Positions 600 through 52,864 of a stretch of DNA of 64,000 nt are shown piece after piece. This DNA is from Eunapius fragilis (Eukaryota; Porifera; Demospongiae; Spongillida; Spongillidae): assembly GCA_963681505.1 (NCBI GenBank), contig OY811990.1:4690891-4754890 (forward strand), read 5' to 3'. Within the stretch, counting starts at the first letter, position 1. Every line of letters begins with the position of its first letter. Position numbers and translations under genes: made by a program. The notes beneath the pieces are model-generated. The model saw nothing but the letters and a program-made list of their open reading frames with translations. It did no database searches and was not told where the DNA came from.

Positions 600-2953
600 C
601 TGTAACCTTCTTCATCTATTGCTATTCCAGTTGGACACTTTACATCTCCATATGATCTGACATAGGTTCCCTCTGGTGTGAAGACTTTGATGGTGTTAGA
701 ACCAAAGGCTGCAACATGGATGTTCCCTTGAGGGTCCAAGGCAAGACCCCATGGATCCTTAAAACCCTGAGCATCAGAGACATTACCATTTATGGTCAAT
801 AGCCAGCTGCCATTTTGATCCAATATTACTACCCTATGGTTGTCACTGTCAGCAACAATCATCCTATCTCTTTGGTCAACAATAACTGATACTGGTCCAT
901 CAAACTGTCCCTGACCTGATCCATGTTGGCCAAACTTTTGTAGGAACTGTCCTCCTGTTGTCAGCTTCTGAATGAGATTATTGCTAGTGTCAGCAACATA
1001 CATCACATCTCCCTTGATGGATATACCAAATGGTCCACTGAGCTGACCATCACCACTTCCACTTCTACCTATGGTTCTCTTTTCATGACCACCTTGGTCA
1101 AACACACGAATACAGTCATCCCAACAGGCTACATAGATGTCTCCACTGTCATGGATGGCTATACCATCTGGACCACCACTACAACTGATAACTTGCTGGA
1201 GGTTACATAAGGTGCTGTAGCTAGGCCTCACATCAAGGTCATGAGGACTGCCCTGTACATGTTCACCATCCATTGTGATGAGGAGCTGGTGAGGACCAGC
1301 AGCCTGAGGGGTGAGGGTGATGGTGTAGGTACCATCTCCATGGTCCTCCACTCTTCCTGGGACAACTGCTCCATCATGTGACTTGGGCCTCAGCTCAGCC
1401 TTCCTCTGCAGACCACCATATGGGTACCTCTCTCCCTCTGAGCTCTTGGTCTCCACTTTTACACTATACACCTTGTCCATCCTGGCTGCTGACTTAGAAG
1501 ACCATGTGCTTTGTGATGGAGCCAATACACGTCCAAATAAGGAGAGTTCCTTCATCAGAGAATCAGTTTGAAGGGTCACATGTATGTCACTGGACTGACT
1601 AGGAGTGAGGGAGACTCCCTCAACCTTCTTCAGGGTGGCCTTCAGTTCAGTGGGTAGCAGATCTCCAAGAGCTACCACCTCATGGTCAATGTGGGTCTGG
1701 AGGATGTGGGAGGTCATCTCAGTGTAGTGACCAATCTCATCTTGTATCTTCACTAACTGTTCCTTCAAGAGGGACAGAGCTGTTGTCTTGGAAAGTGAAA
1801 TGGCCTCCATCTCTGACAACAGTGTCTTCTTCCTTTCCTCTATGGCTTGGTGGAGCTGTTCAAAGGCTTGGTTAATGAGCAGTGTGGCATTCTCTCTGGA
1901 AGTCTCAACCTGTTCTGCCATCTTGACATTAGCACCAATGACACTGGTCAGCTTTGAGGTCATTTCTTGTGCATACACAAGTGCCTCTCTCATTCCATCT
2001 CTGTGAACCTTTGCGACATTGCAAATCTTACTTATCCTGTGGTCCTTGTGATGGACTAAGCTGCAGTCTCCGCAGACCAGACACTGGCAGGTCTCACAGT
2101 AGAATTTTGACTTTACTTTCTCATGATGATGTTGGGAGCAGAGATGTTCAGTTGGTGTCATGATGGATGGAAGTAGTCTGACAGACTCCTGGTCTAGTCC
2201 AACCATCTGGTGATGATGGAATATTTTACTGCTCTTGTGGTGCTCCTGACAGAAGGTACAGAGGAACTGACCACATGTACATCAGAACACCACTGCAGGC
2301 CCCTTGTCCCCATCACAGGCATCACATGACTTTTCACCACCACTGCCAATCTTTGACATGTACCCAGCCACCTCCACCTCAAAGCCAAGATGGAGGTTCT
2401 GAGGTATAGCATTGACTCCACCCTCTGGTATGGTGATACTTCTCTGACAGGTAGGACACCCTATCTTCTGCTTGTCCTCAGACCTCTCTATCTCCATATG
2501 CAGACACTGCCCACAGAAAGAGTGTAGACATGGAAGGATCCTAGGGTCTGTGTAGGGCTTAGAGCACAGCTGACATATGGTGTGTCGAGGGAAGAGGCCA
2601 GAACTGTGGAACAATAAACATGGATGAATGGACGTTCGAGAAAGATCCACTAGGTAATACATGTATACATATGGTGGATATGTGTCTATTTCTGGAGCGT
2701 GCTGTGTGTTTTAGTAGCTTACAGCCGTACTAATTTAAATGCATCAAAATAACACTCCGGTAAGTTTATCACATTGTTACCTGTTGCTACACGCGTCATC
2801 GTGCTTGGACGATTTCAAAATTACTCGGCCCGATATTTGGTCCGCTCCACACTCGTCACAAAGAGGTTCACCAGGATCGAGATCATTTTGGCACAACACA
2901 CATGTCGGTCGCTGTACAGGTAGCATGTTGGTGTGTTGTACTTGGGTGGACAT
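600..2953 (-). pseudogene. TRIM-NHL copy A, broken (nonsense codon plus TE insertion)
   Basis: Exon 1 (2781-2953) encodes 57 aa with the zinc ribbon PTCVLC...LCDEC. Exon 2 starts at 2603 after a pyrimidine-rich acceptor ending ttccacag and encodes RING, B-boxes, coiled coil, filamin repeat and part of the NHL propeller. Two lesions are visible. A TGA at 2282-2284 replaces the TGT of a B-box 1 cysteine seen in every other copy, in the same frame as the downstream coding. The element at 6-599 cuts the gene after GIAIDEEGY, so the last NHL blades are missing from the window. One codon is also lost in CDACIDG. The rest of the frame is open, so the decay is recent. Family role: E3 ubiquitin ligase with NHL recognition propeller; this copy is probably not functional. 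Confidence 0.85.
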
Positions 2954-2956
2954 CAA

Positions 2957-3388
2957 TAAAAAACTTTGCGGAGAAATCTTAACATAAGTTATATTTAGTT
3001 CACTTGGTTCTAATTTTTAACCCCTCGTGGTGCCTGCATTGCAGTGAATGACGTAATGTATCAACACCCAATGGTTGTGAGAAGGTATGTTAAAATTGTA
3101 CAGAACTTCGATGCAGGAGGTACATGCTAAGCTGGATAGAGTATTGGCTATTATACAACCACCAAAGTAAGGAAGTAGCCACTTGGTATGCCTTTCATGC
3201 GTGTACTTAGCACACCAGGCACCTCACATGTGGTGGGAAAACATTGTAGTGATTTGAAGTCGGTTTGTACATACATATTGCATAGTGTAGAATTGCACAT
3301 TCACCTATTTTACTCTGACTCAGTGTATCATCAAAGGGGTGGATGTAAATCTGTTGCCAGCCAATAATATATACTTGTTTGGACAGAA
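2957..3388. other. Intergenic region, TRIM A upstream to poly-C tract
   Basis: No coding region is supported. The right part (about 3310-3388) matches the sequence that introduces the BEN exon in units B, D, E and F (gatgtaaatctgttgccagc), but in unit A the BEN exons are absent and the sequence runs straight into poly-C. Confidence 0.6.
3049..3056 (-). promoter_or_regulatory. CRE/ATF-like TTACGTCA site upstream of TRIM copy A
   Basis: On the gene strand this is TTACGTCA, about 95 bp upstream of the exon 1 ATG at 2953. The same octamer recurs 50-110 bp upstream of TRIM copies B, D, E and F. bZIP binding is inferred from the motif alone. Confidence 0.4.
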
Positions 3389-3647
3389 CCCCCCCCCCCC
3401 CCCCCCCCAATCAATACTTGGCTTATGAAGGAGAGGAGGAGAGTAGGGGAGGGAGGGAGGGAGGAGAGTAGGAGAGGAAGGGAGGGAGGAGAGTAGGGGA
3501 GGAGAGTAGGGGAGGAAGGGAGGGAGGAGAGTAGGGGAGGAGAGTAGGGGAGGAAGGGAGGGAGGAGAGTAGGGGAGGAAGGAAGGGGAGGAGAGAAGGG
3601 GAGGAAGGGAGGGGAGGAAGGGAGGGGAGGAAGGGAGGGACAAACAA
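3389..3647. repeat. Poly-C tract followed by GGAGGAGAGTAGG-type purine repeat
   Basis: A run of about 20 C is followed by some 210 bp of almost pure purine (ggaggagagtaggggaggaagggagg and variants). The same pair recurs at the same place in units D, E and F and in a short form in B. Pro-rich and Ser-rich frames here are artefacts of the repeat. Confidence 0.9.
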
Positions 3648-3974: not shown

Positions 3975-4900
3975 TTATGTAACTTGTATATTATAGCTGT
4001 GAGGGGCAGTGCTGTACATGTGTGCCTTGATGCAGTTGAGGAGGTCGGTGAAGAACATGTTATTGGTATTTTCAAACAGTTCAGAAGCACATACAAATAA
4101 CAGCACAACCATGTCACCATGGATACACTGTGTAGAAATCAACTATATGGTGTGTGTATGATGATGTAATGTTGCGGTGACATCATCCAAATGTTGGGTA
4201 CAGCTTATAAAGCAGTTCAGTTGATGTGTTCAGTGAAGTTACACACCAGCTCTGAATAGCCCTCTGGTACCTGTCGCTCCACAGAGATGACATCACGTGC
4301 CCATGTGCCAACAAGCTCCATATCAGAACCATAATAGTCACCTCCACCTCGTCCATTGCCCTCTGCTGTCAGCAGGGGTAAAGGATGGATACGGATTTGT
4401 GTCCACGCCATATCATCATCACCGTCCGAATCACCTCCACCGCTCTCTGCAGTAGGCAGGGTAAGGCCTACGGCACCATCCATATCTCCGTGCTTCTTGT
4501 CCACGTACTGCTTCTTGGTGTGATTTACGACGTAGCGATAAATGCATTCCGTTTCACTACCCAGTAGGGCCTTCCTATTGGCCATAAAATCACAGTGGAA
4601 GTCGCGAGGAGGACCAGCAGGAACTAGCTCCTTGCTTTCATCAGCCATAATATATAGATTTTGTTCAGAATCAGGCTCATTATCCGCATAGTCGCCCGCC
4701 CACACAACACGGCTCTTGTGGAACATGCCGTCAGGGCTGATAAGGTTTTCCAGCGCAGTCACAAAGCTGCCATTGATGTAGCTGTGTTCCATCAACTTGC
4801 CGAATGCGCCATAACTTAGTGAACATAGCCAGCCACGGATAATCTCTTCCTTGGTCAGCTCTTTCTCGGCTAGCAGAATTGCAATGTAGTACTGACCCAT
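3975..4900 (-). CDS. MGQYY protein, copy A (unidentified family), two exons inferred
   Basis: The main frame begins MGQYYIAILL at 4900. Two more ATGs lie upstream in frame (4933, 4924), but the first abuts a TATATAAAA sequence, so I prefer MGQYY. Conserved segments are GKLMEHSYIN, SRVVWAGDYAD, YRYVVNHTKK and IHPLPLLTAEGNGRGGGDY, then VGTWARDVISVERQ. Without splicing it stops after CNFTEHIN (4217). A phase-0 donor CAG|GTACCA (exon end 4271) and acceptor ctacacag (next exon from 4127) would add 50 residues (CIHGDMVVLLFVCASEL... to a stop at 3975), giving 260 aa. No signal peptide or membrane segment is evident. I do not know its function; the MGQYY start and the WAGDYAD and EGNGRGGGD motifs recall bacterial hypothetical proteins, unverified. 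Confidence 0.65.
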
Positions 4901-6111: not shown

Positions 6112-8623
6112 TCACTACAAGGAATATTTCAATGCAGTGTTAGCACCACAGTTGGCTACATACAGACTACCACTTATAGGATCCAGAGCAAGACCACGGG
6201 GTGCATTGAGATTGCCAACTGTGTGAATCTTGTTTCCCTGAGGATCAAAGATGGAGAGACAATTGCCACTGCGCTCACAGACAAGACTGTAACCTTCTTC
6301 ATCAATTGCTATTCCAGTTGGACACTTTACATCTCCATATGATCTGACATAGGTCCCCTCTGGTGTGAAGACTTTGATGGTGTTAGAACCATAGGCTGCA
6401 ACATGGATGTTCCCATGAGAGTCCAAGGCAAGACCCCATGGATCCTTAAAACCCTGAGCATCAGAAAAACATTGCCATTTATGGACAATAGCCAACTGCC
6501 ATTTTGATCCAATATTACTACCCTATGGTTGTCACTGTCAGCAACAATCATCCTATCTCTTTGGTCAACAATAACTGATACTGGTCCATCAAACTGTCCC
6601 TGACCTGATCCATGTTGGCCAAACTTTTGTAGGAACTGTCCTCCTGTTGTCAGCTTCTGGATGAGATCATTGCTAGTGTCAGCAACATACATCACATCTC
6701 CCTTGATGGATATACCACGTGGTCCATAAAACTGACCATCACCACCTATGGTTCTCTTCTCATGACCACCTTGGTCAAACACAAGAATACAGTTGTCATC
6801 CCAACAGGCTACATGATGTCTCCACTGTCATGGATGGCTATACCATCTGGACCACCCCTACATCTGATAACTTGCTGGGGGTTACATAAAGGCCTCACAT
6901 CAATGTCATGAGGACTGCCATGTACATGTTCACCATCCAATGTGATGAGGAGCTGGTGAGGACCAGCAGCCTGAGGGGTGAGGGTGATGGTGTAGGTACC
7001 ATCTCCATGGTCCTCCACCTTTCCTGGGACAACTGCTCCATCATGTGACTTGGGCCTCAGCTCAGCCTTCCCCTGCAGACCACCATATGGGTACCTCTCT
7101 CCCTCTGAGCTCTTGGTCTCCACTTTTACACTATACACCTTGTCCATCCTGGCTGCTAACTTAGAAGACCATGTGCTTTGTGATGGAGCCAATACACGTC
7201 CAAATAAGGAGAGTTCCTTCATCAGAGAATCAGTTTGAAGGGTCACATGTATGTCACTGGACTGACTAGGAGTGAGGGAGACTCCCCCAACCTTCTTCAG
7301 GGTGGCCTTCAGTTCGGTGGGTAGCAGATCTCCAAGAGCTACCACCTCATGGTCAGTGTGGGTCTGGAGGATGTAGGAGGTCATCTCAGTGTAGCGACCA
7401 ATCTCATCTTGTATCTTCACTAACTGTTCCTTCAAGAGGGACAGAGCTGTTGTCTTGGAAAGTGAAATGGCCTCCATCTCTGACAACAGTGTCTTCTTCC
7501 TTTCCTCTATGGCTTGGTGGAGCTGTTCAAAGGCTTGGTTTATGAGCAGTGTGGCATTCTCTCTGGAAGTCTCAACCTGTTTGGCCATCTTGTCTTTGTC
7601 ACCAATGGCGCTGGTCAGCTTTGAGGCCATTTTTTGTGCACACACAAGTGCCTCTCTCATTCCTTCTCTATGGACCTTTGCGACATTGCAAATCTTACTT
7701 ATCCTGTGGTCCTTGTGATGGACTAAGCTGCAGTCTCCGCAGACCAGACACTGGCAGGTCTCACAGTAGAATTTTGACTTTACTTTCTCATGATGATGTT
7801 GGGAGCAGAGATGTTCAGTTGGTGACATGATGGACGGAAGTAGTCTGACAGACTCCTGGTCTAGTCCAACCGTCTGGTGATGATGAAATATTTTACTGCT
7901 CTTGTGGTGCTCATGACAGAAGGTACAGAGGAACTGACCACATGTACAACAGAACACCACTGCAGGCCCCTTGCTCCCATCAATACAAGCATCACATGAC
8001 TTTTCACCACCACTGCCAATCTTGGACATGTACCCAGCCACCTCCACCTCAAAGCCAAGATGGAGGTTCTGAGGTATAGCATTGACTCCACCCTCTGGAA
8101 TGGTGATACTTCTCTGACAGGTAGGACACTCCATCTTCTGCTTGTCCCCAGACCTCTCTATCTCCATATGCAGACACTGCCCACAGAAAGAGTGTAGACA
8201 TGGAAGGATCCTAGGGTCTGTGTAGGGCTTAGAGCACAGCTGACATATGGTGTGTGGAGGAAAGAGGCCAGATCTGTGGAACAATAAACATGGAATAATG
8301 GACGTTCGAGAAAGATCCACTAGGTAATACATGTATACATATGATGGATATGTGTCTATTTCTGGAGCGTGCTGTGTGTTTTAGTAGCTTACAGCCGTAC
8401 TAATTCAAATGCATCAAAATAACACTCCGGTAAGTTTTATCGCATTGTTACTGTTGCTACACGCGTCATCGTGCTTGGACGATTTCAAAATTACTCGGCC
8501 CGATTTTTGGTCCGCTCCACACTCATCACAAAGTGGTTCATCAGGATCGAGATCATTTTGGCACAACACACATGTCGGTCGCTGTACAGGTAGCATGTTG
8601 GTGTGTTGTACATTGGTTGACAT
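6112..8623 (-). pseudogene. TRIM-NHL copy B, broken by frameshifts and a lost splice donor
   Basis: All domains are present: exon 1 zinc ribbon (about 8451-8623) and exon 2 from 8273 with RING, two B-boxes, coiled coil, filamin repeat and NHL blades ending ANTALKYSL. Three lesions are clear by comparison with copy F. The exon 1 donor has lost one base (cagGTAAC became caGTAAC), which moves the junction out of phase. One base is lost near 6812, shifting frame after HDSGDI. Two bases are gained near 6470, shifting again after INGNV. A 12-bp in-frame loss removes RSGS of RTIGRSGSGDGQ. Copy B is otherwise closest to copy F. If the indels were assembly errors it would be a normal gene, but three independent ones make decay more likely. 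Confidence 0.85.
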
Positions 8624-9737: not shown

Positions 9738-9888
9738 ATTTTTCTTAGTGTGGCAGGTCTCACAATAGATTTTTGTTTCATGATGATGTTGTCCAGTTGG
9801 TGTCATGATGGATGGAAGTAGTCTGACAGACTCCTGGTCTAGTCCTACCGTCTGGTGATGATGGAATATTTTATTCCACATGTACAAC
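9738..9888 (-). pseudogene. TRIM B-box fragment in unit B
   Basis: About 150 bp on the minus strand encode a shortened B-box piece: KIFHHHQTVGLDQESVRLLP, then a deleted B-box 2 (TGQHHHE..IYCETCH). It directly abuts the C-rich and purine-repeat segment. The same fragment sits at the same place in unit F. It is a secondary partial duplication of the TRIM gene and has no independent start context. Confidence 0.8.
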
Positions 9889-9890
9889 AT

Positions 9891-10293: not shown

Positions 10294-11140
10294 TTATGTA
10301 ACTTGTATATTATAGCTGTGAGGGGCAGTGCTGTACATGTGTGCCTTGATGCAGTTGAGGAGGTTGGTGAAGAACATGTTATTGGTATTTTCAAGCAGTT
10401 CAGAAGCACATACAAATAACAGCACAACCCTGTCACCATGGATACACTGTGATGTGTTCAGTGAAGTTACACACCAGCTCTGAATAGCCCTCTGGTACCT
10501 GTCGCTCCACAGAGATGACACAACGTGCCCATGTGCCAACAAGCTCCATATCAGAACCATAATAATCACCTCCACCTCGTCCATTGCCCTCTGCCATCAG
10601 CAGGGGTAAAGGATGGATACGGATTTGTGCTTCCACCATATCACCATCATCATCATCATCATCATCACCCAAATCACCACCACCGCTCACTACACTTGGC
10701 AGGGTAAGGCCTACGGCACCATCCATATCTCTGTGCTTCTTGTCCACGTACAGCTTCTTGGTGTGATTTACGACGTAGCGATATCTGCATTCCGTTTCAC
10801 TACCCGGTAGGGCCTTCCTATTGGCCAGAAAACCATGGTAGAAGTAGCGAGGAGGACCAGCTGGAAGTAGCTTCTTGCTTTCATCAGCGTCTGCCATATT
10901 TTGATCAGAATCAGACTCCTTATCCGCATAGTCGCCCGCCCACACAACACGGCTCTTGTGGAACATGCCGTCAGGGCTGATAAGGTTTTCCAGCGCAGTC
11001 ACAAAGCTGTCATTGATGTAGCTGTGTTCCATCAACTTGCCGAATGCGCCAAAACTTAGTGAACATAGCCAGCCACGGATAATCTCTTCCTTGGTCAGCT
11101 CTTTCTCGGCTAGCAGAATTGCAATGTAGTACTGACCCAT
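10294..11140 (-). CDS. MGQYY protein, copy B
   Basis: The frame starts MGQYYIAILL at 11140 and is open to 10433 (unspliced end ...FTEHITVYPW). Using the same phase-0 donor CAG|GTACCA as copy A (exon end 10499) and an acceptor ending acatcacag, the intron would be only 52 bp and the C-terminal exon (10294-10446) would encode CIHGDRVVLLFVCASELLENTNN to a stop, as in copy A. That the frame survives although most of the copy A intron is deleted here supports the splice model. An acidic linker with seven consecutive Asp codons (gat repeats near 10650) precedes IRIHPLPLL. Function unknown. Confidence 0.65.
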
Positions 11141-17496: not shown

Positions 17497-20265
17497 CTAC
17501 ACAGAATACTTCAATACAGTGTTACCACCATGGTTGGCTACATACAGACTACCACTTATAGGATCCAGAGCAACACCATGGGGTGCATTGAGATTGCCAA
17601 CTGTGTGGATCTTGTTTCCCTGAGGATCAAAGATGGAGAGACAAATGCCACTGCGCTCACAGACAAGGCTGTAACCTTCTTCATCAATTGCTATTCCAGT
17701 TGGACCCTTTACATCTCCATATGATCTGACGTAGGTCCCCTCTGGTGTGAAGACTTTGATGGTGTCAGAACCATGGGCTGCAACATGGATGTTCCCTTGA
17801 TGGTCCAAGGCAAGACTCCATGGTTTATTAAAACCCTGAGGACCAGAGACATCACCATTGATGGTCAATATACAAAGCCAGCTGCCATTTTGATCCAATA
17901 TAACTACCCTGTTGTTGCAATAATCAGCAACAATCATCCTATCTCTTTGGTCAACAATAACTGATGCAGGTCCTCTAAACCGTCCCAGACCTGATCCACG
18001 TTGGCCAAACTTTTGTAGGAACTGTCCTTCTGTTGTCAGCTTCTGAATGCGATGATTGCCATATTCAGCAACATACATCACATCTCCCTTGATGGATATA
18101 CCACATGGTTCACTGAACTGACCATCACCACTCCCACCACTACCAATGGTTCTCTTCTCAAGACCACCTTGGTCAAACACACGAATACAGCCATCCTTAC
18201 TACAGGCTACATAGATGTCTCCACTGTCATGGATGGCAATACCATCTGGACCACCCCTACAACTGATATCTTGCTGGGGGTTAGATAAGGTGCTGTAGCT
18301 AGGCCTCACATCAAGGTCATGAGGGCTGCCCTGTACGTGTTCATCATCCATTGTGATGAGAAGCTGGTGAGGACCAGCAGCCTGAGGGGTGAGGGTGATG
18401 GTGTAGGTACCATCTCCATGGTCCTCCACCTTTCCTGGGACAACTGCTCCATCATGAGACTTGGGCCTCAGCTCAGCCTTCACCTGCAGACCACCATATG
18501 GGTACCTCTCTCCCTCTGAGCTCTTGGTCTCCACTTTCACACTATACACCTCGTGCTTAATGGCTGCTGACTTCGAAGACCATGTGCTTTGTGATGGAAG
18601 TGAGGCCATTACATGACCAAATATGGAGAGTTCCTTCATCAGAGAATCAGTTTGTATGGTCACATGTATGTCACTGGACTGATTGGCAGAGAGGGAGACT
18701 CCCTCAACCTTCTTCAGGGTGGCCTTTAGTTCAGTGGGTAGCAGATCTCCAAGAGCTACCACCTCATGGTCAGTGTGGGTCTGGAGGATGTGGGAGGTCA
18801 TCTCAGTGTAGTGACCAATCTCATCTTGTATCTTCACTAACTGTTCCTTCAAGAGGGACAGAGCTGTTGTCTTGGAAAGTGAAATGGCCTCCATCTCTGA
18901 CAACAGTGTCTTCTTCCTTTCCTCTATGGCTTGGTGGAGTTGTTCAAAGGCTTGGTTAATGAGCAGTGTGGCATTCTCTCTGGAAATCTCAACTTGTTCT
19001 GCCATCTTCTCTTTGTCACCAATGGCACTGGTCAGCTTTGAGGCCATTTCCTGTGCATACACAAGTGCCTCTCTCATTTCATCTCTGTGGGCCTTTGCGA
19101 CATTGCAAATCTTACTTATCCTGTGGTCCTTGTGATGGACTAAGCTGCAGTCTCCGCAGACCAGACACTGGCAGGTCTCACAGTAGAATTTTGACTTTAC
19201 TTTCTCATGATGATGTTGGGAGCAGAGATGTTCAGTTGGTGTCATGATGGATGGAAGTAGTCTGATGGACTCCTGGTCTAGTCCAACCATCTGGTGATGA
19301 TGGAATATTTTACTGCTCTTGTGGTACTCATGACATAAGGTACAGAGGAACTGACCACATGTACAACAGAACACCACTGCAGGTCCCTTGCCCCCATCAA
19401 TACAAGCATCACATGACTTTTCACCACCACTGCCAATCTTGGACATGTACCCAGCCACCTCCACCTCAAAGCCAAGATGGAGGTTTTGAGGTATAGCAAT
19501 GACTCCACCCTCTGGTATGATGATACTTCTCTGACAGGTAGGACACTCCATCTTCTGCTTGTCCCCAGACCTCTCTATCTCCATATGCAGACACTGCCCA
19601 CAGAAAGAGTGTAGACATGGAAGGATCCTAGGGTCTGTGTAGGGCTTGGAGCACAGCTGACATATGGTGTGTGGAGGGAAGAGGCCAGACCTGTGGAACA
19701 ATAACAGAAAAGATCCCTAGGTAATACATGTACACATATGGTGGATGTGTCTATTGGGCTATTCCATTATTTAAACATTCACCCCTAAAGATAGATGACG
19801 AACGTAACCCACTGGGACAATACGTAAAATCATCCTGTACACCCTGGACAAGCGTCTATTCGACTACACCTTCCCTGGACAAGCGTATGTTTTGGACTGG
19901 CATTTATACCACCACCCCCCGGGACATAACTCCCCTGTTCACGAACACCCCCGTGGACATCATTTTAATATTGTCATCTGCAGGGGTGTAAGCCCATTCC
20001 TGATCGTGCTGTGTGATTTAGTAGCTTACAGCCGTACTGATTCAAATGCATCAATTTTTAAAACACTCCGGTAAGTTTTATCACATTGTTACCTGTTGCT
20101 ACACGCGTCATCGTGCTTGGACGATTTCAACGTCACTCGACCCGATTTTTGGTCCGCTCCACACTCGTCACAAAGTGGTTCACCAGGATCGAGATCATTT
20201 TGGCACATCACACACGTCGGTCGCTGTACAGGTAACATGCTGTTGTGTTGTACTTGAGTAGACAT
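17497..20265 (-). CDS. TRIM-NHL E3 ligase, copy C (two exons, 788 aa)
   Basis: Exon 1 (20093-20265) encodes 57 aa with CVMC...CDEC. Its donor CAG|GTAACA and the exon 2 acceptor ttccacag (first base 19690) join in phase as SN-R-SGLFPPHTIC. The intron is 402 bp because of an inserted block. Exon 2 encodes a C3HC4 RING (ICQLC...CPTC, about residues 68-110), B-box 1 and 2 (about 151-248), coiled coil (to about 365), filamin repeat (about 430-530) and an NHL propeller to the end (KYSV). No internal stop. This is the most divergent copy: FGHVMASLPSQS in the hinge, AIKHEVYS before the filamin repeat and many NHL loop changes. The RING is expected to catalyse ubiquitination and the propeller to bind RNA or protein. 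The upstream CRE-like site is missing because of a retroelement insertion. Confidence 0.88.
19752..20003. mobile_element. About 250-bp insertion in the TRIM C intron
   Basis: Other copies read gtgtctatttctggagcgtgc; here gtgtctatt is followed by about 250 bp starting gggctattccatt and ending gcccattcctga before tcgtgctgtg. It contains repeated tggacaagcgt. The ends are only weakly complementary, so its class is unknown. Confidence 0.5.
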
Positions 20266-20299
20266 CACATAAAAGGCGCTTAAATCGTATGTAGGGAAC

Positions 20300-34500: not shown

Positions 34501-35263
34501 CTTACACAACTACATGGGAGAGGAGTACCCTCTTGGCTAGCTGACCTCTTACACAACTACATGGGAGAGGAGTACCCTCTTGGCTAGCTGACCTCTTACA
34601 CAACTACATGGGAGAGGAGTACCCTCTTGGCTAGCTGACCTCTTACACAACTACATGGGAGAGGAGTACCCTCTTGGCTAGCTGACCTCTTACACAACTA
34701 CATGGGAGAGGAGTACCCTCTTGGCTAGCTGACCTCTTACACAACTACATGGGAGAGGAGTACCCTCTTGGCTAGCTGACCTCTTACACAACTACATGGG
34801 AGAGGAGTACCCTCTTGGCTAGCTGACCTCTTACACAACTACATGGGAGAGGAGTACCCTCTTGACTAGCTGGCCTCTTACACAACTACATGGGAGAGGA
34901 GTACCCTGTTGGCTAGCTGACCTCTTACACAACTACATGGGAGAGGAGTACCCTCTTGGCTAGCTGGCCTCTTACACAACTACATGGGAGAGGAGTACCC
35001 TCTTGGCTAGCTGGCCTCTTACACAACTACATGGGAGAGGAGTACCCTCTTGGCTAGCTGGCCTCTTACACAACTACATGGGAGAGGAGTACCCTCTTGG
35101 CTAGCTGACCTCTTACACAACTACATGGGAGAGGAGTACCCTCTTGGCTAGCTGACCTCTTACACAACTACATGGGAGAGGAGTACCCTCTTGGCTAGCT
35201 GACCTCTTACACAACTACATGGGAGAGGAGTACCCTCTTGGCTAGCTGACCTCTTACACAACC
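22560..35263. repeat. 47-bp minisatellite array 1 (about 270 monomers)
   Basis: The monomer, read in two pieces, is gagaggagtaccctcttggc then tagctgacctcttacacaactacatgg, 47 bp. Spacing between identical motifs is exactly 47 throughout. Frequent variants are tgacc/tggcc, tagct/tacct and ggcta/ggtta; rarer ones (ctcatgg, cttgact, ctgttgg, cgtacac) mark higher-order blocks. Two consecutive 34-bp monomers near 27895-27945 lack ttacacaactaca. Long frames across variant-rich stretches (e.g. 32559-32801) come from the repeat and are not supported as genes. Confidence 0.97.
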
Positions 35264-36000
35264 ACATCTTACAGTGTGCTCTGGACATGTGTGTGTCTGT
35301 GTGGCGCGCGCGCGAACGCACATCTTCAGAGGCGGATCCAGGAGAGGGGGGGGGGGGGGGGGGTTTGGGGGTTGCAACCCCCCATTTCATATATGGTAAC
35401 GCCCCCTCTTCTGCTAGCCAGCCCCTCCCCCTTCCCCGCTTTTTGTGTCGGGCCTGAAGCGGGCAGCACCCCCCCCCCCCCCCTCCCGCTTTTCGTGTCA
35501 GGTCTAAAGCGGACAGCACCCCACCCCCCCCCCGCATTTCGTATGCGGGTCTCAACCCCCCCTTTTGGAAAACCCTGTATCCGCCCCTGATCTTACAGTG
35601 TGCTCTGGACAACTCTTGTCGAGGATTGATAATCGAGGTAACTGATATCAAAATATATATCCACGGATACGAACCTTGCACAACGGCCAGTCCGAGCGAG
35701 ATACTGAACCTTGACTGACACCAATGCTGGTTCGTATTGTATTTCAGTTTTGAAACCAACTGGTACCATGCAATATTCTCAGCCTGAACCAGGGTTGTGA
35801 TACCAGTTAACAACCAGGCTGTTGATTTAAATACCCATGATTCAGACTGTATTTCATTCCCACACCAGACTGTATTTCACCAGGTTTGATTCAGACTGGT
35901 TACTTTTGGCTGTGTATATGATCTCTGAAAAAACATACCTTTACATCTGTAGCCATACTTTCTGACATGTTAATAAAGAAAGAAATAATCGCTTAACTGG
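35264..36000. other. Junction between array 1 and unit D
   Basis: It contains a 21-bp direct repeat (atcttacagtgtgctctgga) flanking the element at 35327-35589, a short CG-rich run (gcgcgcgcg near 35304) and unique non-coding sequence. No gene is supported. Confidence 0.5.
35327..35589. mobile_element. CAGAGGCGGATCCAGG/CCGCCCCTG element
   Basis: 263 bp with terminal inverted repeats CAGAGGCGGATCCAGG and CCTGTATCCGCCCCTG, flanked by atctt at 35322-35326 and 35590-35594. The interior has poly-G and poly-C tracts and gttgcaacccccc. Same family as 13261, 47679 and 57474. Confidence 0.85.
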
Positions 36001-36156: not shown

Positions 36157-38687
36157 CTACACGGAATATTTCAATACACTGTTATCACCACAGTTGGCTA
36201 CATACAGACTACCACTTATAGGACCCAGATCAATACCACGGGGTGCATTGAGATTGCCAACTGTGTGGATCTTGTTTCCCTCAGGATCAAAGATGGAGAG
36301 ACAATTGCCACTGCGCTCACAGACAAGGCTGTAACCTTCTTCATCAATTGCTATTCCAGTTGGACCCTTTACATCTCCATAAGATCTGACATAGGTCCCC
36401 TCTGGTGTGAAGACTTTGATGGTGTCAGAACCATAAGCTGTAACATGGATGTTCCCTTGAGAGTCCAAGGCAAGACCCCATGGATTCTTAAAACCCTGAG
36501 CACCAGAGACATTACCATTTATGGTCATTAGCCAGCTGCCATTTTGATCCAAAATCACCACCCTGTGGTTGTAATGATCAGCAACAATCATCCTATCTCT
36601 TTGGTCAACTATAACTGATATTGGTCCATTAAACTGTCCCTGACCTGATCCACGTTGGCCAAACATTTGTAGGAACTGTCCTCCTGTTGTCAGCTTCTGA
36701 ATGCGATGATTGCCCCGATCAGCAACATACATCACATCTCCCTTGATGGATACACCACGTGGTCCACAGAACTGACCATCACCACTCCCACTACTACCTA
36801 TGGTTCTCTTCTTATGACCACCTTGGTCAAACACACCCACGCAGTTCCCTTTGAAAGATGTCACATAGATGTCTCCACTGTCATGGATGGCAATACCTAT
36901 TGGTTCACCACTACAACTGATAACTTGCTGGGGGTTACATAAGGTGCTGTAGCTAGGCCTCACATCAAGGTCATGAGGACTGCCCTGTACATGTTCACCA
37001 TCCATTGTGATGAGGACCTGGTGAGGACCAGCAGTCTGAGGGGTGAGGGTGATGGTGTAGGTACCATCACCATGGTCCTCCACCTTTCCTGGGACAACTG
37101 CTCCATCATGTGACTTGGGCCTCAGCTCAGCCTTCACCTGCAAACCACCATATGGATACCTCTCTCCCTCTGAGCTCTTGGTCTCCACTTTTATACTATA
37201 CACCATGTCCATCCTGGCTGCTAACTTAGAAGACCATGTGCTTTGTGATGGAGATGGAGGTGAGGCCATTATACAAGCAAATTTGGAGAGTTCCTTCATC
37301 AGAGAATCAGTTTGTAGGGTCACATGTATGTCACTGGACTGACTAGGAGTGAGGGAGACTCCCTCAACCTTCTTCAGGGTGGCCTTCAGTTCAGTGGGTA
37401 GCAGATCTCCAAGAGCTACCACCTCATGGTCAGTGTGGGTCTGGAGGATGTGGGAGGTCATCTCAGTGTAGTGACCAATCTCATCTTGTATCTTCACTAA
37501 CTGTTCCTTCTGGAGGGACAGAGCTGTTGTCTTGGAAAGTGAAATGGCCTCCATCTCTGACAACAGTGTCTTCTTCCTTTCCTCTATGGCTTGGTGGAGC
37601 TGTTCAAAGGCTTGGTTAATGAGCAGTGTGGCATTCTCTCTGGAAGTCTCAACCTGTTCTGCCATCTTGACATTAGCACCAATGACACTGGTCAGCTTTG
37701 AGGTCATTTCTTGTGCATACACAAGTGCCTCTCTCATTTCATCTCTGCGGACCTTTGCGACATTGCAAATCTTACTTATCCTGTGGTCCTTGTGATGGAC
37801 TAAGCTGCAGTCTCCGCAGACCAGACACTGGCAGGTCTCACAGTAGAATTTTGACTTTACTTTCTCATGATGATGTTGGGAGCAGAGATGTTCAGTTGGT
37901 GTCATGATGGATGGAAGTAGTCTGACAGACTCCTGGTCTAGTCCAACCATCTGGTGATGATGGAATATTTTACTGCTCTTGTGGTGCTCATGACAGAAGG
38001 TACAGAGGAACTGACCACATGTACAACAGAACACCACTGCAGGCCCCTTGCCCCCATCAATACAATCATCACATGACTTTTCACCACCACTGCCAATCTT
38101 GGACATGTACCCAGCCACCTCCACCTCAAAGCCAAGATGGAGGTTCTGAGGTATAGCATTGACTCCACCCTCTGGAATGGTGATACTTCTCTGACAAGTA
38201 GGACACTCCATCTTCTGCTTGTCCCCAGACCTCTCTATCTCCATATGCAGACACTGCCCACAGAAAGAGTGTAGACATGGAAGGATCCTAGGGTCTGTGT
38301 AGGGCTTATAGCACAGCTGACATATGGTGTGTGGAGGAAAGAGGCCATATCTGTGAAACAATTAACATGGATGAATGGACGTTCGAGAAAGTAATACATG
38401 TATACATATGATCCATTTCTAGAGCGTGCTGTGTGTTTTAGTAGCTTACAGCCGTACTAATTTAAATGCATCAAAATAACACTCCGGTAAGTTTAGTCAC
38501 ATTGTTACCTGTTGCTACACGCGTCATCGTGCTTGGACGATTTCAAAATTACTCGGCCCGATTTTTGGTCTGCTCCACACTCGTCACAAAGTGGTTCACC
38601 AGGATCGAGATCATTTTGGCACAGCACACACGTCGGTCGCTGTACAAGTAACATGTTGTTGTGTTGTACTAGTACTTGGGCTGACAT
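36157..38687 (-). CDS. TRIM-NHL E3 ligase, copy D (two exons, 790 aa)
   Basis: Exon 1 (38509-38687) encodes 59 aa starting MSAQVLVQHNN with zinc ribbon CVLC...CDEC. The 158-bp intron has donor CAG|GTAACA and acceptor tttcacag, joining as SN-R-YGLFPPHTIC. Exon 2 (36157-38350) carries the RING (Cys/His at about residues 70-112), B-box 1 (153-193), B-box 2 (214-250), coiled coil (to about 366), filamin repeat (about 436-533) and six NHL-like blades to KYSV. The hinge before the filamin repeat is longer than in E and F (KFACIMASPPSPSQS). The first NHL blade has TSFKGNCVGVFD, shared with E, against WDDNCIRVFD in A, B and F. No lesions seen; likely functional ubiquitin ligase with substrate or RNA binding through NHL. 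Confidence 0.9.
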
Positions 38688-40072: not shown

Positions 40073-41001
40073 TTAATTTGGTGACCATTTATGTAACTTG
40101 CATATTATAGCTGTGAGGGGCAGTGCTGTACATGTGTGTGCCTTGATGCAGTTGAGGAGGTCGGTGAAGAACATGTTATTGGTATTTTCAAACAGTTCAG
40201 AAGCACATACAAATAACAGCACAACCCTGTCACCATGGATACACTGTGTAGAAATCAACTATATGGCGTGTGTATGATAATGTAACGTTGCGGTGACATC
40301 ATCCAAATGTTGGGTACAGCTTATAAAGTAGTTCAGTTGATGTGTTCAGTGAAGTTACACACCAGCTCTGAATAACCCTCTGGTACCCGACGCTCCACAG
40401 AGATGACATCACGTGCCCATGTGCCAACAAGCTCCATATCAGAACCATAATAATCACCTCCACCTCGTCCATTGCCCTCTGCTGTCAGGAGGGGTAAAGG
40501 ATGGATATCATCATCACCGTCCAAATCACCTCCACCGCTCTCTGCAGTAGGCAGGGTAAGGCCTACGGCACCATCCATATCTCTGTGCTTCTTGTCCACG
40601 TACTGCTTCTTGGTGTGATTTACGACGTAGCGATAAATGCATTCCGTTTTACTACCCAGTAGGGCCTCCGTATTGACCATAAAATCACAGTAGAAGTCGC
40701 GAGGAGGACCAGCTGGAAGTAGCTTCTTGCTTTGATCAGCGTCTGCCATCATCATTAGATTTTGTTCAGAATCAGGCTCATTATCCGCACAGTCGCCCGC
40801 CCACACAACACGGCTCTTGTGGAACATGCCGTCAGGGCTGATAAGGTTTTCCAGCGCAGTCACAAAGCTGTTATTGATGTAGCTGTGTTCCATCAACTTG
40901 CCGAGTGCGCCAAAACTTACTGAACATAGCCAGCCACGGATAATCTCTTCCTTGGTCAGCTCTTTCTCGGCTAGCAGAATTGCTAAGTAGTACTGACCCA
41001 T
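40073..41001 (-). CDS. MGQYY protein, copy D
   Basis: The frame opens at MGQYYLAILL (41001) with additional upstream in-frame ATGs, and is open to 40333 unspliced. Conserved blocks are present (GKLMEHSYIN, SRVVWAGDCAD, YRYVVNHTKK, IHPLPLLTAEGNGRGGGDYY), though AWTQIR before IHPLPLL is deleted. With the donor CGG|GTACCC (exon end 40387) and the acceptor before 40243, the C-terminal exon follows, but two extra bases near 40137 change its end to TCTALPLTAIICKLHKW. Function unknown; the tail change may be tolerated or mark early decay. Confidence 0.6.
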
Positions 41002-41415: not shown

Positions 41416-41628
<213 letters not shown>

Positions 41629-43732: not shown

Positions 43733-46245
43733 CTACACGGAATATTTCAATGCAGTGTTAGCACCACAGTTGGCTACATACAGACTACCACTTATAGGAT
43801 CCAGAGCAATACCACGGGGTGCATTGAGATTGCCAACTGTGTGGATCTTGTTTCCCTGAGGATCAAAGATGGAGAGACAATTGCCACTGCGCTCACAGAC
43901 AAGACTGTAACCTTCTTCATCAATTGCTATTCCAGTTGGATCCTTTACATCTCCATATGATCTGACATAGGTCCCCTCAGGTGTGAAGACTTTGATGGTG
44001 TCAGAACCCCAGGCTGCAACATGGATGTTCCCTTGAGGATCCAAGGCAAGACCCCATGGATCCGTAAAACCCTGAGCACCAGAGACATTACCATTTATGG
44101 TCAATAGCCAGCTGCCATTTTGATCCAATATTACTACCCTATGGTTTTTACTGTCAGCAACAATCATCCTATCTCTTTGGTCAACAATAACTGATCTTGG
44201 TCTATTAAACTGTCCCTGACCTGATCCATGTTGGCCAAACTTTTGTAGGAACAGTCCTCCTGTTGTCAGCTTCTGAATGCGATGATTGCCCCGATCAGCA
44301 ACATACATCACATCTCCCTTGATGGATACACCACGTGGTCCACGAAACTGACCATCACCATTCCCACTACTACCTATGGCTCTCTTCTCATGACCACCTT
44401 GGTCATACACACACACACAGTTCCCTTTGAAAGATGTCACATAGATGTCTCCACTGTCATGGATGGCAATACCTATTGGTTTACCACTACAACTGATAAC
44501 TTGCTGGGGGTTACATAAGGTGCTGTAGCTAGGCCTCACATCAAGGTCATGAGGACTGCCCTGTACATGTTCACCATCCATTGTGATGAGGAGCTGGTGA
44601 GGACCAGTAGCCTGAGGGGTGAGGGTGATGGTGTAGGTACCATCTCCATGGTCCTCTAACTTTCCTGGGACAACTGTTCCATCATGTGACTTGGGCCTCA
44701 GCTCAGCCTTCCCCTGCAGACCACCATATGGGTACCTCTCTCCCTCTGAGCTCTTGGTCTCCACCTTTATACTATACACCATGTCCATCCTGGCTGCTGA
44801 CTTAGAAGACCATGTGCTTTGTGATGGAGCCAATACACGTCCAAATAAGGAGAGTTCCTTCATCAGAGAATCAGTTTGTAGGGTCACATGTATGTCACTG
44901 GACTGACTAGGAGTGAGGGAGACTCCCTCAACCTTCTTCAGGGTGGCCTTCAGTTCAGTGGGTAGCAGATCTCCAAGAGCTACCACCTCATGGTCAGTGT
45001 GGGTCTGGAGGATGTGGGAGGTCATCTCAGTGTAGTGACAAATCTCATCTTGTATCTTCACTAACTGTTCCTTCAAGAGGGACAGAGCTGTTGTCTTGGA
45101 AAGTGAAATGGCCTCCATCTCTGACAACAGTGTCTTCTTCCTTTCCTCTATGGCTTGGTGGAGCTGTTCAAAGGCTTGGTTAATGAGCAGTGTGGCATTC
45201 TCTCTGGAAGTCTTAACCTGTTCTACCATCTTGACATTAGCACCAATGACACTGGTCAGCTTTGAGGTCATTTCTTGTGCATACACAAGTGCCTCTGTCA
45301 TTTCATCTCTGCGGACCTTTGCGACATTGCAAATCTTACTTATCCTGTGGTCCTTGTGATGGACTAAGCTGCAGTCTCCGCAGACCAGACACTGGCAGGT
45401 CTCACAGTAGAATTTTGACTTTACTTTCTCATGATGATGTTGGGAGCAGAGATGTTCAGTTGGTGTCATGATGGATGGAAGTAGTCTGACAGACTCCTGG
45501 TCTAGTCCAACCGTCTGGTGATGATGGAATATTTTACTGCTCTTGTGGTGCTCATGACAGAAGGTACAGAGGAACTGACCACATGTACAACAGAACACCA
45601 CTGCAGGCCCCTTGCCCCCATCAATACAAGCATCACATGACTTTTCACCACCACTGCCAATCTTGGACATGTACCCAGCCACCTCCACCTCAAAGCCAAG
45701 ATGGAGGTTCTGAGGTATAGCATTGACTCCACCCTCTGGTATGGTGATACTTCTCTGACAGGTAGGACACTCCATCTTCTGCTTGTCCCCAGACCTCTCT
45801 ATCTCCATATGCAGACACTGCCCACAGAAAGAGTGTAGACATGGAAGGATCCTAGGGTCTGTGTAGGGCTTAGAGCACAGCTGACATATGGTGTGTGGAG
45901 GGAAGAGGCCAGACCTGTGAAACAATTAACATGGATGAATGGACGTTCGAGAAAGTAATACATGTATACATATAATGGATATGTGTCCATTTCTGGAGCG
46001 TGCTGTGTGTTTTAGTAGCTTACGCCGTACTAATTTAAATGCATCAAAATAACACTCCGGTAACATTGTTACCTGTTGCTACACGCGTCATCGTGCTTGG
46101 ATGATTTCAAAATTACTCGGCCCGATTTTTGGTCTGCTCCACACTCGTCACAAAGTGGTTCACCAGGATCGAGATCATTTTGGCACAGCACACACGTCGG
46201 TCGCTGTACAGGTAACATGTTGTTGTGTTGTACTAGGGCTGACAT
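43733..46245 (-). CDS. TRIM-NHL E3 ligase, copy E (two exons, 784 aa)
   Basis: Exon 1 (46073-46245) starts MSALVQHNNML and encodes the CVLC...CDEC ribbon. The intron is 158 bp and exon 2 runs 43733-45914, joined as SN-R-SGLFPPHTIC. RING, both B-boxes, coiled coil, filamin repeat and NHL propeller are intact. Relative to D the hinge is short (LFGRVLAPSQS). The first blade resembles D (VTSFKGNCVCVYDQ), while blade loops differ elsewhere (ADSKNHRV, FTDPWG, AAWGSD, KDPTG). Likely functional ubiquitin ligase. The 3' flank has an 11-C run followed by 17 A instead of the pure C tract of other units. Confidence 0.9.
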
Positions 46246-47649: not shown

Positions 47650-48867
47650 CTTGTATATTATAGCTGTGAGGGGCAGTGCAGGGGCGGATCCAGGGGGGGG
47701 GGTTGGGGGGGTTGCAACCCCCCCTTTCAAACCCGTAATGAATAATTATCATTAGTAACAATTAAGAATTATTGCGAAGTAATGATGGCTGAAATTCGTA
47801 ATACAACTGCAGCTCAGCGAGGAAACAAACGGCAAGGCAGTATTATGTAGTGTTGTGCGCATGATATAATAAAAAAGCGTTGGCGGCTGGGGCGGAGCCC
47901 CAGACCCCCTCCCCCTCTTCATGAATATTAATTAGCAACCCCCTCTTTTCTGAAATCCTGGATCCGCCCCTGCAGTGCTGTACATGTGTGTCTTGATGCA
48001 GTTGAGGAGGTCAGTGAAGAACATGTTATTGGTATTTTCAAGCAGTTCAGAAGCGCATACAAATAACAGCACAACCCTGTCACCATGGATACACTGTGAA
48101 GAAACCAACTATACGGCGTGTGTATGATGATGTAATGTTACGGTGACATCATCCAAATGTTGGGTACAGCTTATAAAGCAGTTCAGTTGATGTGTTCAGT
48201 GAAGTTACACACCAGCTCTGAATAGCCCTCTGGTACCTGTCGCTCCACAGAGATGACATTACGTGCCCATGTGCCAACAAGCTCCATATCAGAACCACAA
48301 TAATCACCTCCACCTCGTCCATTGCCCTCTGCTGTCAGCAGGGGTAAAGGATGGATACGGATTTGTGTCCACGCCATATCATCATCACCGTCCGAATCAC
48401 CTCCACCGCTCTCTGCAGTAGGCAGGGTAAGGCCTACGGCACCATCCATATCTCCGTGCTTCTTGTCCACGTACAGCTTCTTGGTGTGATTTACGACGTA
48501 GCGATATCTGCATTCCGTTTCCCTACCCAGTAGGGCCTTCGTATTGGCCATAAAATCACAGTGGAAGTCGCGAGGAGGACCAGCAGGAACTAGCTCCTTG
48601 CTTTCATCAGCCATAATATATAGATTTTGTTCAGAATCAGGCTCATTATCCGCATAGTCGCCCGCCCACACAACACGGCTCTTGTGGAACATGCCGTCAG
48701 GGCTGATAAGGTTTTCCAGCGCAGTCACAAATCTGTTATTGATGTAGTTGTGTTCCATCAACTTGCGGAATGCGCCATAATTGTGTGAAACATAGCCAGC
48801 CACGGATAATCTCTTCCTTGGTCAGCTCTTTCTCGGCTAGCAGAATTGCAATGTAGTACTGACCCAT
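47650..48867 (-). pseudogene. MGQYY protein, copy E (frameshift and TE insertion)
   Basis: It starts MGQYYIAILLAEKELTKEEI at 48867. A one-base gain near 48782 (cataattgtgtgaaac against cataacttagtgaac) shifts the frame after RGWLC, and the rest (KLMEHNYIN, VVWAGDYAD, VVNHTKK, IHPLPLLTAEGNGRGGGDY) is read in another frame to 48183. The proposed C-terminal exon is split by the element at 47679-47972. Two independent lesions mean this copy is probably dead. Confidence 0.75.
47679..47972. mobile_element. CAGGGGCGGATCCAGG element in the MGQYY C-terminal exon of unit E
   Basis: 294 bp with perfect 16-bp terminal inverted repeats (CAGGGGCGGATCCAGG and CCTGGATCCGCCCCTG). The 5-bp direct repeat cagtg flanks it (47674-47678, 47973-47977), and units A, B and D give the empty site (gaggggcagtgctgtac). 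It has no coding capacity. This is the clearest member of the family in the window. Confidence 0.95.
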
Positions 48868-50050: not shown

Positions 50051-50237
50051 TGTAAAAACGCTGAATGCCTTGGTAGCTTCCTTTAGGTTAGAAGAGAAAT
50101 ACAACGTGGTGTTTTACGACAGTGTAAAAAACATACCTTTAAATCTGTAGCCATATTATCCGACATGGTTAAAGAAAGTAATAATCACTTAATTGGATGG
50201 TTTGTAAATTAACAACAGCCTGGGTACGACCATATAT

Positions 50238-50255
50238 CCCCCCCCCCCCCCCCCC
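50238..50255. repeat. 18-C homopolymer downstream of TRIM copy F
   Basis: C run about 90 nt after the TRIM stop codon. Confidence 0.95.
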
Positions 50256-50343
50256 ACCCCCAATCACTCCATTGTTTGCTTGTCATCCCGATCCAGATGA
50301 TAGTGTCATATGTTCAACCTACCATTTTATGCATACATCATCA

Positions 50344-52864
50344 CTACAAGGAATATTTCAATGCAGTGTTAGCACCATAGTTGGCTACATACAGACTACC
50401 ACTTATAGGATCCAGAGCAATACCACGGGGTGCATTGAGATTGCCAACTGTGTGGATCTTGTTTCCCTGAGGATCAAAGATGGAGAGACAATTGCCACTG
50501 CGCTCACAGACAAGGCTGTAACCTTCTTCATCAATTGCTATTCCAGTTGGACACTTTACATCTCCATATGATCTGACATAGGTCCCCTCTGGTGTAAAGA
50601 CTTTGATGGTGTTAGAACCATAGGCTGCAACATGGATGTTCCCATGAGAGTCCAAGGCAAGACCCCATGGATCCTTAAAACCCTGAGCATCAGAAACATT
50701 GCCATTTATGGACAATAGCCAGCTGCCATTTTGATCCAATATTACTACCCTATGGTTGTCACTGTCAGCAACAATCATCCTATCTCTTTGGTCAACAATA
50801 ACTGATACTGGTCCATCAAACTGACCCTGACCTGATCCATGTTGGCCAAACTTTTGTAGGAACTGTCCTCCTGTTGTCAGCTTCTGAATGAGATCATTGC
50901 TAGTGTCAGCAACATACATCACATCTCCCTTGATGGACATACCACGTGGTCCATAAAACTGACCATCACCACTTCCACTTCTACCTATGGTTCTCTTCTC
51001 ATGACCACCTTGGTCAAACACACGAATACAGTTGTCATCCCAACAGGCTACATAGATGTCTCCACAGTCATGGATGGCTATACCATCTGGACCACCCCTA
51101 CATCTGATAACTTGCTGGGGGTTACATAAAGACCTCACATCAATGTCATGAGGACTGCCCTGTACATGTTCACCATCCAATGTGATGAGGAGCTGGTGAG
51201 GACCAGCAGCCTGAGGGGTGAGGGTGATGGTGTAGGTACCATCTCCATGGTCCTCCACCCTTCCTGGGACAACTGCTCCATCATGTGACTTGGGCCTCAG
51301 CTCAGCCTTCCCCTGCAGACCACCATATGGGTACCTCTCTCCCTCTGAGCTCTTGGTCTCCACTTTTACACTATACACCATGTCCATCCTGGCTGCTAAC
51401 TTAGAAGACCATGTGCTTTGTGATGGAGCCAATACACGTCCAAATAAGGAGAGTTCCTTCATCAGAGAATCAGTTTGTAGGGTCACATGTATGTCACTGG
51501 ACTGACTAGGAGTGAGGGAGACTCCCCCAACCTTATTCAGGGTGGCCTTTAGTTCGGTGGGTAGCAGATCTCCAAGAGCTACCACCTCATGGTCAGTGTG
51601 GGTCTGGAGGATGTGGGAGGTCATCTCAGTGTAGCGACCAATCTCATCTTGTATCTTCACTAACTGTTCCTTCTGGAGGGACAGAGCTGTTGTCTTGGAA
51701 AGTGAAATGACCTCCATCTCTGACAACAGTGTCTTCTTCCTTTCCTCTATGGCTTGGTGGAGCTGTTCAAAGGCTTGGTTAATGAGCAGTGTGGCATTCT
51801 CTCTGGAAGTCTCAACCTGTTTGGCCATCTTGTCTTTGTCACCAATGGCACTGGTCAGCTTTGAGGCCATTTCTTGTGCACACACAAGTGCCTCTCTCAT
51901 TCCTTCTCTGTGGACCTTTGCGACATTGCAAATCTTACTTATCCTGTGGTCCTTGTGATGGACTAAGCTGCAGTCTCCGCAGACCAGACACTGGCAGGTC
52001 TCACAGTAGAATTTTGACTTTACTTTCTCATGATGATGTTGGGAGCAGAGATGTTCAGTTGGTGACATGATGGACGGAAGTAGTCTGACAGACTCCTGGT
52101 CTAGTCCAACCATCTGGTGATGATGGAATATTTTACTGCTCTTGTGGTGCTCATGACAGAAGGTACAGAGGAACTGACCACATGTACAACAGAACATCAC
52201 TGCAGGCCCCTTGCTCCCATCAATACAAGCATCACATGACTTTTCACCACCACTGCCAATCTTGGACATGTACCCAGCCACCTCCACCTCAAAGCCAAGA
52301 TGGAGGTTCTGAGGTATAGCATTGACTTCACCCTCTGGTATGGTGATACTTCTCTGACAGGTAGGACACTCCATCTTCTGCTTGTCCCCAGACCTCTCTA
52401 TCTCCATATGCAGACACTGCCCACAGAAAGAGTGTAGACATGGAAGGATCCTAGGGTCTGTGTAGGGCTTAGAGCACAGCTGACATATGGTGTGTGGAGG
52501 GAAGAGGCCAGATCTGTGGAACAATAAACATGGATGAATGGACGTTCGAGAAAGATCCACTAGGTAATACATGTATACATATGATGGATACGTGTCTATT
52601 TCTGGAGCGTGCTGTGTGTTTTAGTAGCTTACAGCCGTACTAATTCAAATGCATCAAAATAACACTCCGGTAAGTTTTATCGCATTGTTACCTGTTGCTA
52701 CACGCGTCATCGTGCTTGGACGATTTCAAAATTACTCGGCCCGAATTTTGGTCCGCTCCACACTCGTCACAAAGTGGTTCACCAGGATCGAGATCATTTT
52801 GGCACAACACACATGTCGGTCGCTGTACAGGTAGCATGTTGGTATGTTGTACATGGGTTGACAT
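50344..52864 (-). CDS. TRIM-NHL E3 ligase, copy F (two exons, 780 aa)
   Basis: Exon 1 (52692-52864) begins MSTHVQHTNML and carries the CVLC...CDEC ribbon. The intron is 178 bp, and exon 2 (50344-52513) joins as SN-R-SGLFPPHTIC. All domains from RING to the last NHL blade (ANTALKYSL) are intact. It shares VHREGMREALVCAQ, GDKDKMAKQ and the blade segment WDDNCIRVFDQ with broken copy B, of which it looks like the intact sister. The GDIYV blade has HDCGD in place of HDSGD. Likely a functional E3 ligase. Two codons are missing before the NHL repeats (RSLCNPQQ against RPSYSTLCNPQQ, shared in part with B). Confidence 0.9.

Follow-up and report, generated by a model that had tools for sequence, protein, structure and literature searches.

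Diversifying selection on one propeller face in a large family of TRIM-NHL genes of the sponge Eunapius fragilis

Results

We analysed a stretch of 64,000 nucleotides from contig C20 of the Eunapius fragilis genome (C20:4690891-4754890; 219 Mb in 24 contigs). This whole stretch is referred to as the window, and features are given in window coordinates. It carries six TRIM-NHL genes in tandem (copies A to F), all on the minus strand and sharing 93.4-98.5% pairwise DNA identity. Four of them are intact over the main exon and two are broken, as the original prediction had proposed. Residue numbers follow copy D, residue 1 of which lies at 38361. The six copies are as follows:

Copy A, broken: 599..2953, minus strand; main exon 599-2614, exon 1 2953-2781; in-frame stop at residue 112 (copy D numbering), 3' end missing
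Copy B, broken: 6115..8623, minus strand; main exon 6115-8284, exon 1 start at 8623; 1-bp frameshift in the NHL domain
Copy C, intact: 17497..20265, minus strand; exon 1 20265-20093, exon 2 19690-17497, main open frame 17497-19701; joined frame
Copy D, intact: 36157..38687, minus strand; exon 1 38687-38509, exon 2 38350-36157, main open frame 36157-38361; joined frame; Pfam RING, B-box, filamin and NHL
Copy E, intact: 43733..46245, minus strand; exon 1 46245-46073, exon 2 45914-43733, main open frame 43733-45925; joined frame
Copy F, intact: 50344..52864, minus strand; exon 1 52864-52692, exon 2 52513-50344, main open frame 50344-52524; joined frame of 780 codons

For copies C to F a first exon (M..MLPVQRPTCVLCQNDLDPGEPLCDECG..) with a short CxxC/CxxC segment was found, separated from the main exon by a clean GT-AG intron. 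It precedes exon 2, which it joins in frame, by about 160-400 bases, and the joined exons run without a stop over 780-790 codons; position 52864 is the start codon in the first exon of copy F. The segment that exon 1 encodes ahead of the RING (for example at 38687-38509) has the form CxxC-x10-CxxC and is possibly a small zinc ribbon.

Pfam matches above cut-off in copies C and D comprised zf-C3HC4 and zf-RING_UBOX, indicating a RING finger, a B-box (PF00643, 26.7 bits; cut-off 24.1), a filamin repeat (PF00630, 51.3 bits; cut-off 26.9) and NHL repeats. AlphaFold modelled the NHL domain as a six-bladed propeller with a confidence score (pLDDT) of 94.7. A single-sequence AlphaFold model of the whole protein reached a pLDDT of only 43 and was left out of all arguments about propeller faces; in that low-confidence model long helices lie inside residues 193-308, the putative coiled-coil region. 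Their domain content places these genes among the TRIM-NHL genes (class VII TRIM, with filamin). NCBIfam matches to ScyF and ScyE fell below their cut-offs and were read as reflecting shared NHL repeats.

The earlier description of a six-copy array holds for the window but not for the genome. A 36-base stretch taken from the RING exon matched 148 genomic sites at three or fewer mismatches, while the reversed control pattern matched none. Among the matches listed (100 of the 148), at least 87 lie on C20, mainly between 3.4 and 5.9 Mb, and at least 13 on nine other contigs, so that the window is surrounded by many linked paralogues. A protein search matched at least 62 stretches, a single one of which lay outside C20:3.58-5.89 Mb (61 of 668 candidates scored), and NHL repeats in general gave at least 130 matches over many contigs (150 of 800 candidates scored). 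Among three dispersed copies, the one on C1 retains a long intact frame, and those on C4 and C7 are broken.

For comparison across the family we gathered 60 fetched regions and eight loci from the protein search, to which eight smaller regions were added later. Among the first 68 loci, 64 contained a RING-bearing open frame of 600 residues or more, and these entered an entropy table; L039, L048, L054 and L068, which have no such frame, were left out. Two truncated copies (L032 and L042) were removed after the entropy table, leaving 62 copies, window copies C to F among them, for the selection tests.

Across the 64 copies, entropy was low in the RING and filamin domains and rose in evenly spaced peaks along the NHL domain. 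Each blade was anchored on the conserved proline at the start of strand A (P) and on the aspartate, or its equivalent, at the end of strand B (D). The top peaks fell at P-1, P+1, D+1 and D+2, with lesser peaks at P-2, P-10 and D+4, and the A-B and C-D loops were flat at their register positions. We accordingly defined 24 class positions, four per blade: the two flanking the conserved proline and the two that follow the strand-B 'AD'. The loop motifs from which the original prediction had derived its recurrent variation were all located in the window copies. The propellers and the class positions are:

NHL propeller of copy C: 17500..18282, minus strand; from alignment
NHL propeller of copy D (residues 476-734): 36160..36936, minus strand; AlphaFold model with pLDDT 94.7 and six blades, site-wise selection
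NHL propeller of copy E: 43736..44512, minus strand; from alignment
NHL propeller of copy F: 50347..51123, minus strand; from alignment
Class positions (copy D): 486, 488, 503, 504, 533, 535, 549, 550, 579, 581, 596, 597, 626, 628, 643, 644, 666, 668, 683, 684, 706, 708, 724, 725

These 24 residues occur in 58 distinct combinations in the 62 genes, with a median of 17 differences between two copies. On average a pair of copies differs at 16.5 of the 24 class positions (69%), compared to 33.5 of the remaining 235 NHL residues (14%), 52.9 of residues 1-475, the N-terminal part (11%), and 1.5 of 44 RING residues. The RING is thus nearly constant, and the filamin domain changes little across the family. 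Four pairs of near-identical genes, all on C20, have identical 24-residue faces (L062/L067, L008/L009, L035/L036 and L038/L053); by their fetched positions the partners lie roughly 100-210 kb apart, pointing to recent duplicates in an active cluster.

At family scale, the expectation of near-identical RING and B-box sequences was borne out for the RING only. The B-box region (residues 104-200 of copy D and their equivalents) showed a proportion of synonymous differences (pS) of 0.165, against 0.03-0.11 in other parts, and a proportion of nonsynonymous differences (pN) of 0.088; its variable residues in copy D include 129, 134, 166, 168 and 197. The divergence looks as if older or mosaic B-box versions circulated within the family.

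Selection was assessed with a codon model (MG94 x HKY) coded in Python rather than with PAML or HyPhy. The nonsynonymous-to-synonymous rate ratio (omega) was 0.75 for codons 1-475 and 1.25 for the NHL codons 476-734. In a FUBAR-like grid, 22 of the 24 class positions exceeded a posterior of 0.9, as did 24 of the 235 other NHL codons. After removal of the window's four intact copies, model M2a was strongly favoured over M1a in the remaining 58 genes (twice the log-likelihood difference, 837), with 11% of sites at an omega of 6.1; posteriors above 0.95 were reached by 20 of the 24 class positions and by 6 of the 235 other NHL codons.

Association between sites decays within 60 bp, and the N-terminal part and the NHL domain give different trees. 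The short-range decay is as expected if blocks of sequence are exchanged among copies. Site models, however, assume one tree, and strong decay of association inflates their likelihood ratios, which weakens the case built on them. For this reason, changes were counted in 25 disjoint pairs of close copies, picked on non-class NHL codons. Here, pN/pS at class sites was 2.86 (bootstrap 1.58-6.85; 1 of 2000 replicates at or below 1), whereas it was 0.61 in the rest of the NHL domain, 0.58 in residues 1-370 and 0.76 in residues 371-475. When only codons differing by a single nucleotide were counted, the class sites showed 128 nonsynonymous against 5 synonymous differences, a ratio of 6.6. Over all pairs, each of the six blades lay above 1 at its class sites (1.8-6.2) and the RING at 0.29. 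The variable NHL sites therefore evolve with a ratio above 1 in the checks run, and RING and NHL diverge unequally when synonymous rates are allowed for, both as had been predicted.

A high rate of change at these codons could also arise from targeted hypermutation of the loop codons, in which case selection would be unnecessary. Indeed, in the count of all changes pS at class codons was about twice that elsewhere (0.082 versus 0.044), and third-position diversity was three times that elsewhere. The pS excess is gone in the single-nucleotide count (0.017 at class codons versus 0.039 in the rest of the NHL domain), and we attribute it to multi-step codons being split over paths. Site means tell the same story, the synonymous rate alpha being 1.31 at class positions and 1.06 elsewhere, while the nonsynonymous rate beta is 7.4 versus 0.8. 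Since synonymous change at class codons is not raised in the single-nucleotide count, hypermutation is disfavoured, and we regard it as very improbable. Even less credible is a combination of relaxed constraint on surface loops with homogenisation of the remainder by gene conversion, which would carry no adaptive meaning. The lower pS of the RING (0.051) and filamin (0.032) than of the NHL domain (0.107) is consistent with homogenisation, and so is the decay of association over short distances. Relaxation, however, would yield a ratio near 1 rather than 2.9, and the lower loops of the propeller remain conserved (mean beta 0.48 and 0.57). Conversion, moreover, treats neighbouring codons alike, yet the conserved proline (mean beta 0.45) sits between two hypervariable codons.

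When mapped on the AlphaFold model of the NHL domain, 24 of the 25 strongest selected sites fall at the upper face, and the lower loops contain none of them. At a posterior of 0.99, selected sites comprise 19 of 74 upper-loop but 0 of 51 lower-loop positions; at 0.95 the figures are 24 of 74 and 3 of 51. The variable sites are therefore concentrated on one common face rather than scattered over both, in agreement with the original prediction. Thus, change is slow in the RING and in the core of the propeller, and four upper-face positions in each blade are under strong diversifying selection. Positive selection is centred on this putative binding surface, with weaker sites elsewhere too, including in the N-terminal part.

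TRIM71/LIN41, Thin, Brat and TRIM2/3 are single-copy, conserved regulators. Unlike in these proteins, the positions used by LIN41 for contact are here the fastest-changing part: all ten published LIN41 RNA contacts fall into the four variable position classes, whereas most LIN41 contact residues are identical between species (PMC5908797). This correspondence suggests a further explanation, namely that the copies diversified to read different RNAs (endogenous mRNA, transposon or viral) through a face like that of LIN41 or Brat. The published function of the LIN41 upper face is, after all, RNA binding rather than pathogen binding, and Brat likewise binds RNA through it (PMC5908797). However, the face is not strongly basic, as that of a LIN41-type RNA reader would be. 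Over the 24 sites net charge averages +1, compared to +8 in TRIM71; it ranges from -2 to +7 and reaches +4 to +7 in 4 of the 62 copies. Gly, Tyr, Ser, Arg, Asn and Trp abound on the variable face, the first three being the commonest. Furthermore, stable endogenous mRNA targets are not expected to drive positive selection. On balance, we consider diversification of RNA targets rather unlikely.

The closest published pattern is found in a fungal system. In the NWD/HNWD genes of Podospora, codons 7 and 9 of each WD40 repeat, on either side of a conserved residue in the d-a loop, and codons 25 and 27, on either side of another in the b-c turn, are under selection, at the top of the propeller (PMC1805685; PMC4986451). 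Like Podospora anserina HET-E, HET-D and HET-R, the genes studied here form a diversified family with four selected positions per repeat on the propeller top and exchange between members (PMC1805685). The two systems differ in that the sponge genes combine NHL repeats with a RING ligase, while NWD proteins are WD40 proteins with NACHT and a HET death domain, encoded by about ten genes. Whole NWD repeats are exchanged and their number varies, whereas each gene here has six distinct blades. Since the fungal genes serve allorecognition, the sponge faces might similarly act as tags, or readers of tags, that distinguish self from nonself between conspecific individuals, as het-d and het-e do, instead of sensing pathogens. 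More than 100 related ligase genes are, in our judgement, more than an allotype system would be expected to need, and the whole words TRIM and NHL are absent from the main text of the paper on grafting in the sponge Amphimedon (PMC5450542). We therefore think allorecognition an unlikely role for the family, despite the fungal parallel.

A second parallel is offered by fish finTRIM, btr and trim35/hltr and primate TRIM5alpha, which are likewise RING-B-box-coiled-coil families that expanded and carry a hypervariable, selected C-terminal recognition domain (PMC3137616). Their recognition domain is the B30.2 sandwich with hypervariable loops, unlike the NHL propeller with one face varied in each blade. 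By behaviour, the fungal NWD/HNWD genes and the fish B30.2 TRIMs would be the nearest relatives of the system described here, and the resemblance appears convergent; the fungal genes differ in repeat family and effector, the fish genes in recognition fold. Sequence diversity at the top opening is also reported for human TRIM-NHL structures (PMC9634614).

The remaining elements of the window are as follows:

9751-9873, minus strand: B-box relic (blastn, 81.3% over 144 columns)
55039-55161, minus strand: B-box relic (blastn, 80.6% over 144 columns)
4220-4900, 10448-11140, 40336-41001, 48186-48867 and 55773-56876, minus strand: open reading frame (MGQYY...KLMEHSYI...) upstream of copies A, B, D, E and F, respectively; PHROG 3156 match
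22554-35267: 47-bp minisatellite, about 270 copies with 96-98% matches, separating copies C and D
57899-64000: 47-bp minisatellite, at least 130 copies with 96-98% matches, beyond copy F to the window end; unit identical to that at 22554-35267
20295-20927, plus strand: reverse-transcriptase-like fragment (PF00078, E 1.9e-5, below cut-off)
53288-54406, minus strand: open reading frame of 372 residues with no Pfam, PHROG or NCBIfam match

The upstream open reading frame matches PHROG 3156, a phage family of no assigned function, at an E-value of about 1e-22 in the two copies tested. A genome search found it in 13 stretches, only at C20:4.695-4.834 Mb. Its pN/pS among four copies is 1.2-2.0, and the copies beside E and F are interrupted. 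This suggests a passenger that was duplicated along with the TRIM genes and that may derive from a virus or a bacterium. That it forms part of the TRIM gene was rejected, because an in-frame exon 1 was found elsewhere and the open reading frame is phage-like and lies beside only some copies. The fragment at 20295-20927 and the open reading frame at 53288-54406 are probably retroelement remains.

Discussion

Our data suggest that the window belongs to a germline repertoire of TRIM-NHL E3 ubiquitin ligases with diversified putative binding faces, carried mainly on one chromosome; we hold this reading to be probable, though well short of certain. Each gene would encode a ligase with a common effector end and a different binding face. 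The face would capture a particular molecule, most likely a fast-evolving intracellular nonself protein of viral, microbial or parasite origin, after which the RING would ubiquitinate the target or signal. New faces may arise from point mutation and short gene conversion between neighbours and be retained by selection. The ligand, and any immune role of the repertoire, are what we infer. A nonself protein is favoured because stable endogenous RNA targets would hardly account for selection for novelty, and favoured over RNA because of the charge and residue composition of the face.

Several findings weigh against this repertoire reading, among them the RNA function of the LIN41 face and the raised synonymous count noted above. 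Our set of 62 consists of the genes that match copy D best, together with a few others, and is thus biased towards intact, similar genes. The 24 positions were fixed after the 64-copy entropy table and a first codon-model run, so that the 58-gene test, although independent of the window, was not blind. By number, most residue differences fall outside the class sites; the contrast is one of rate. The N-terminal part is also positive under M2a (twice the log-likelihood difference, 195; 17 sites above 0.95). The N-terminal sites above a posterior of 0.9 in the FUBAR-like run (38 of 475) mostly had small likelihood ratios, and we do not claim them. Five TRIM-NHL loci of the same genome, three on C11 and two on C22, were used as control groups, without a clear outcome. 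Within the C11 trio, blades 2-4 vary at 4 of 12 class columns and at 31 of 138 others, and the two C22 genes are distinguished by only 9 differences in 321 residues. The C11 group has no concentration at class sites, and the sample is too small to confine the pattern to the C20 family. The stronger controls are the internal ones, namely lower loops, strands, RING and filamin. As a separate observation, in the TRIM-NHL group L072-L074 (C11:2133500-2155800) some blades are nearly identical from one neighbouring gene to the next and others strongly different, suggesting blade-sized exchange.

Immune diversification of TRIM proteins is known for B30.2 domains, and the case of an NHL propeller appears new. 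Full-text literature searches returned no hypervariable NHL propeller family in the titles and abstract openings seen, and the main text of the paper on sponge NLRs (PMC12909245), like that of the grafting paper, lacks the whole words TRIM and NHL.

To conclude, we put forward, as a tentative idea that may well prove wrong, that an animal lacking antibodies maintains in its germline a library of more than 100 ubiquitin ligases, in which NHL propellers provide antibody-like faces of 24 residues, shaped by selection and short gene conversion and joined to a common RING, for nonself recognition convergent with that of fungal WD40 incompatibility genes. If so, an animal would possess an intracellular library that recognises and ubiquitinates, and many natural variants of one small propeller would be at hand for direct ligand tests. 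One ligase scaffold would have given rise to a large recognition repertoire through four varied residues per blade, the same solution that fungi reached on WD40 repeats.

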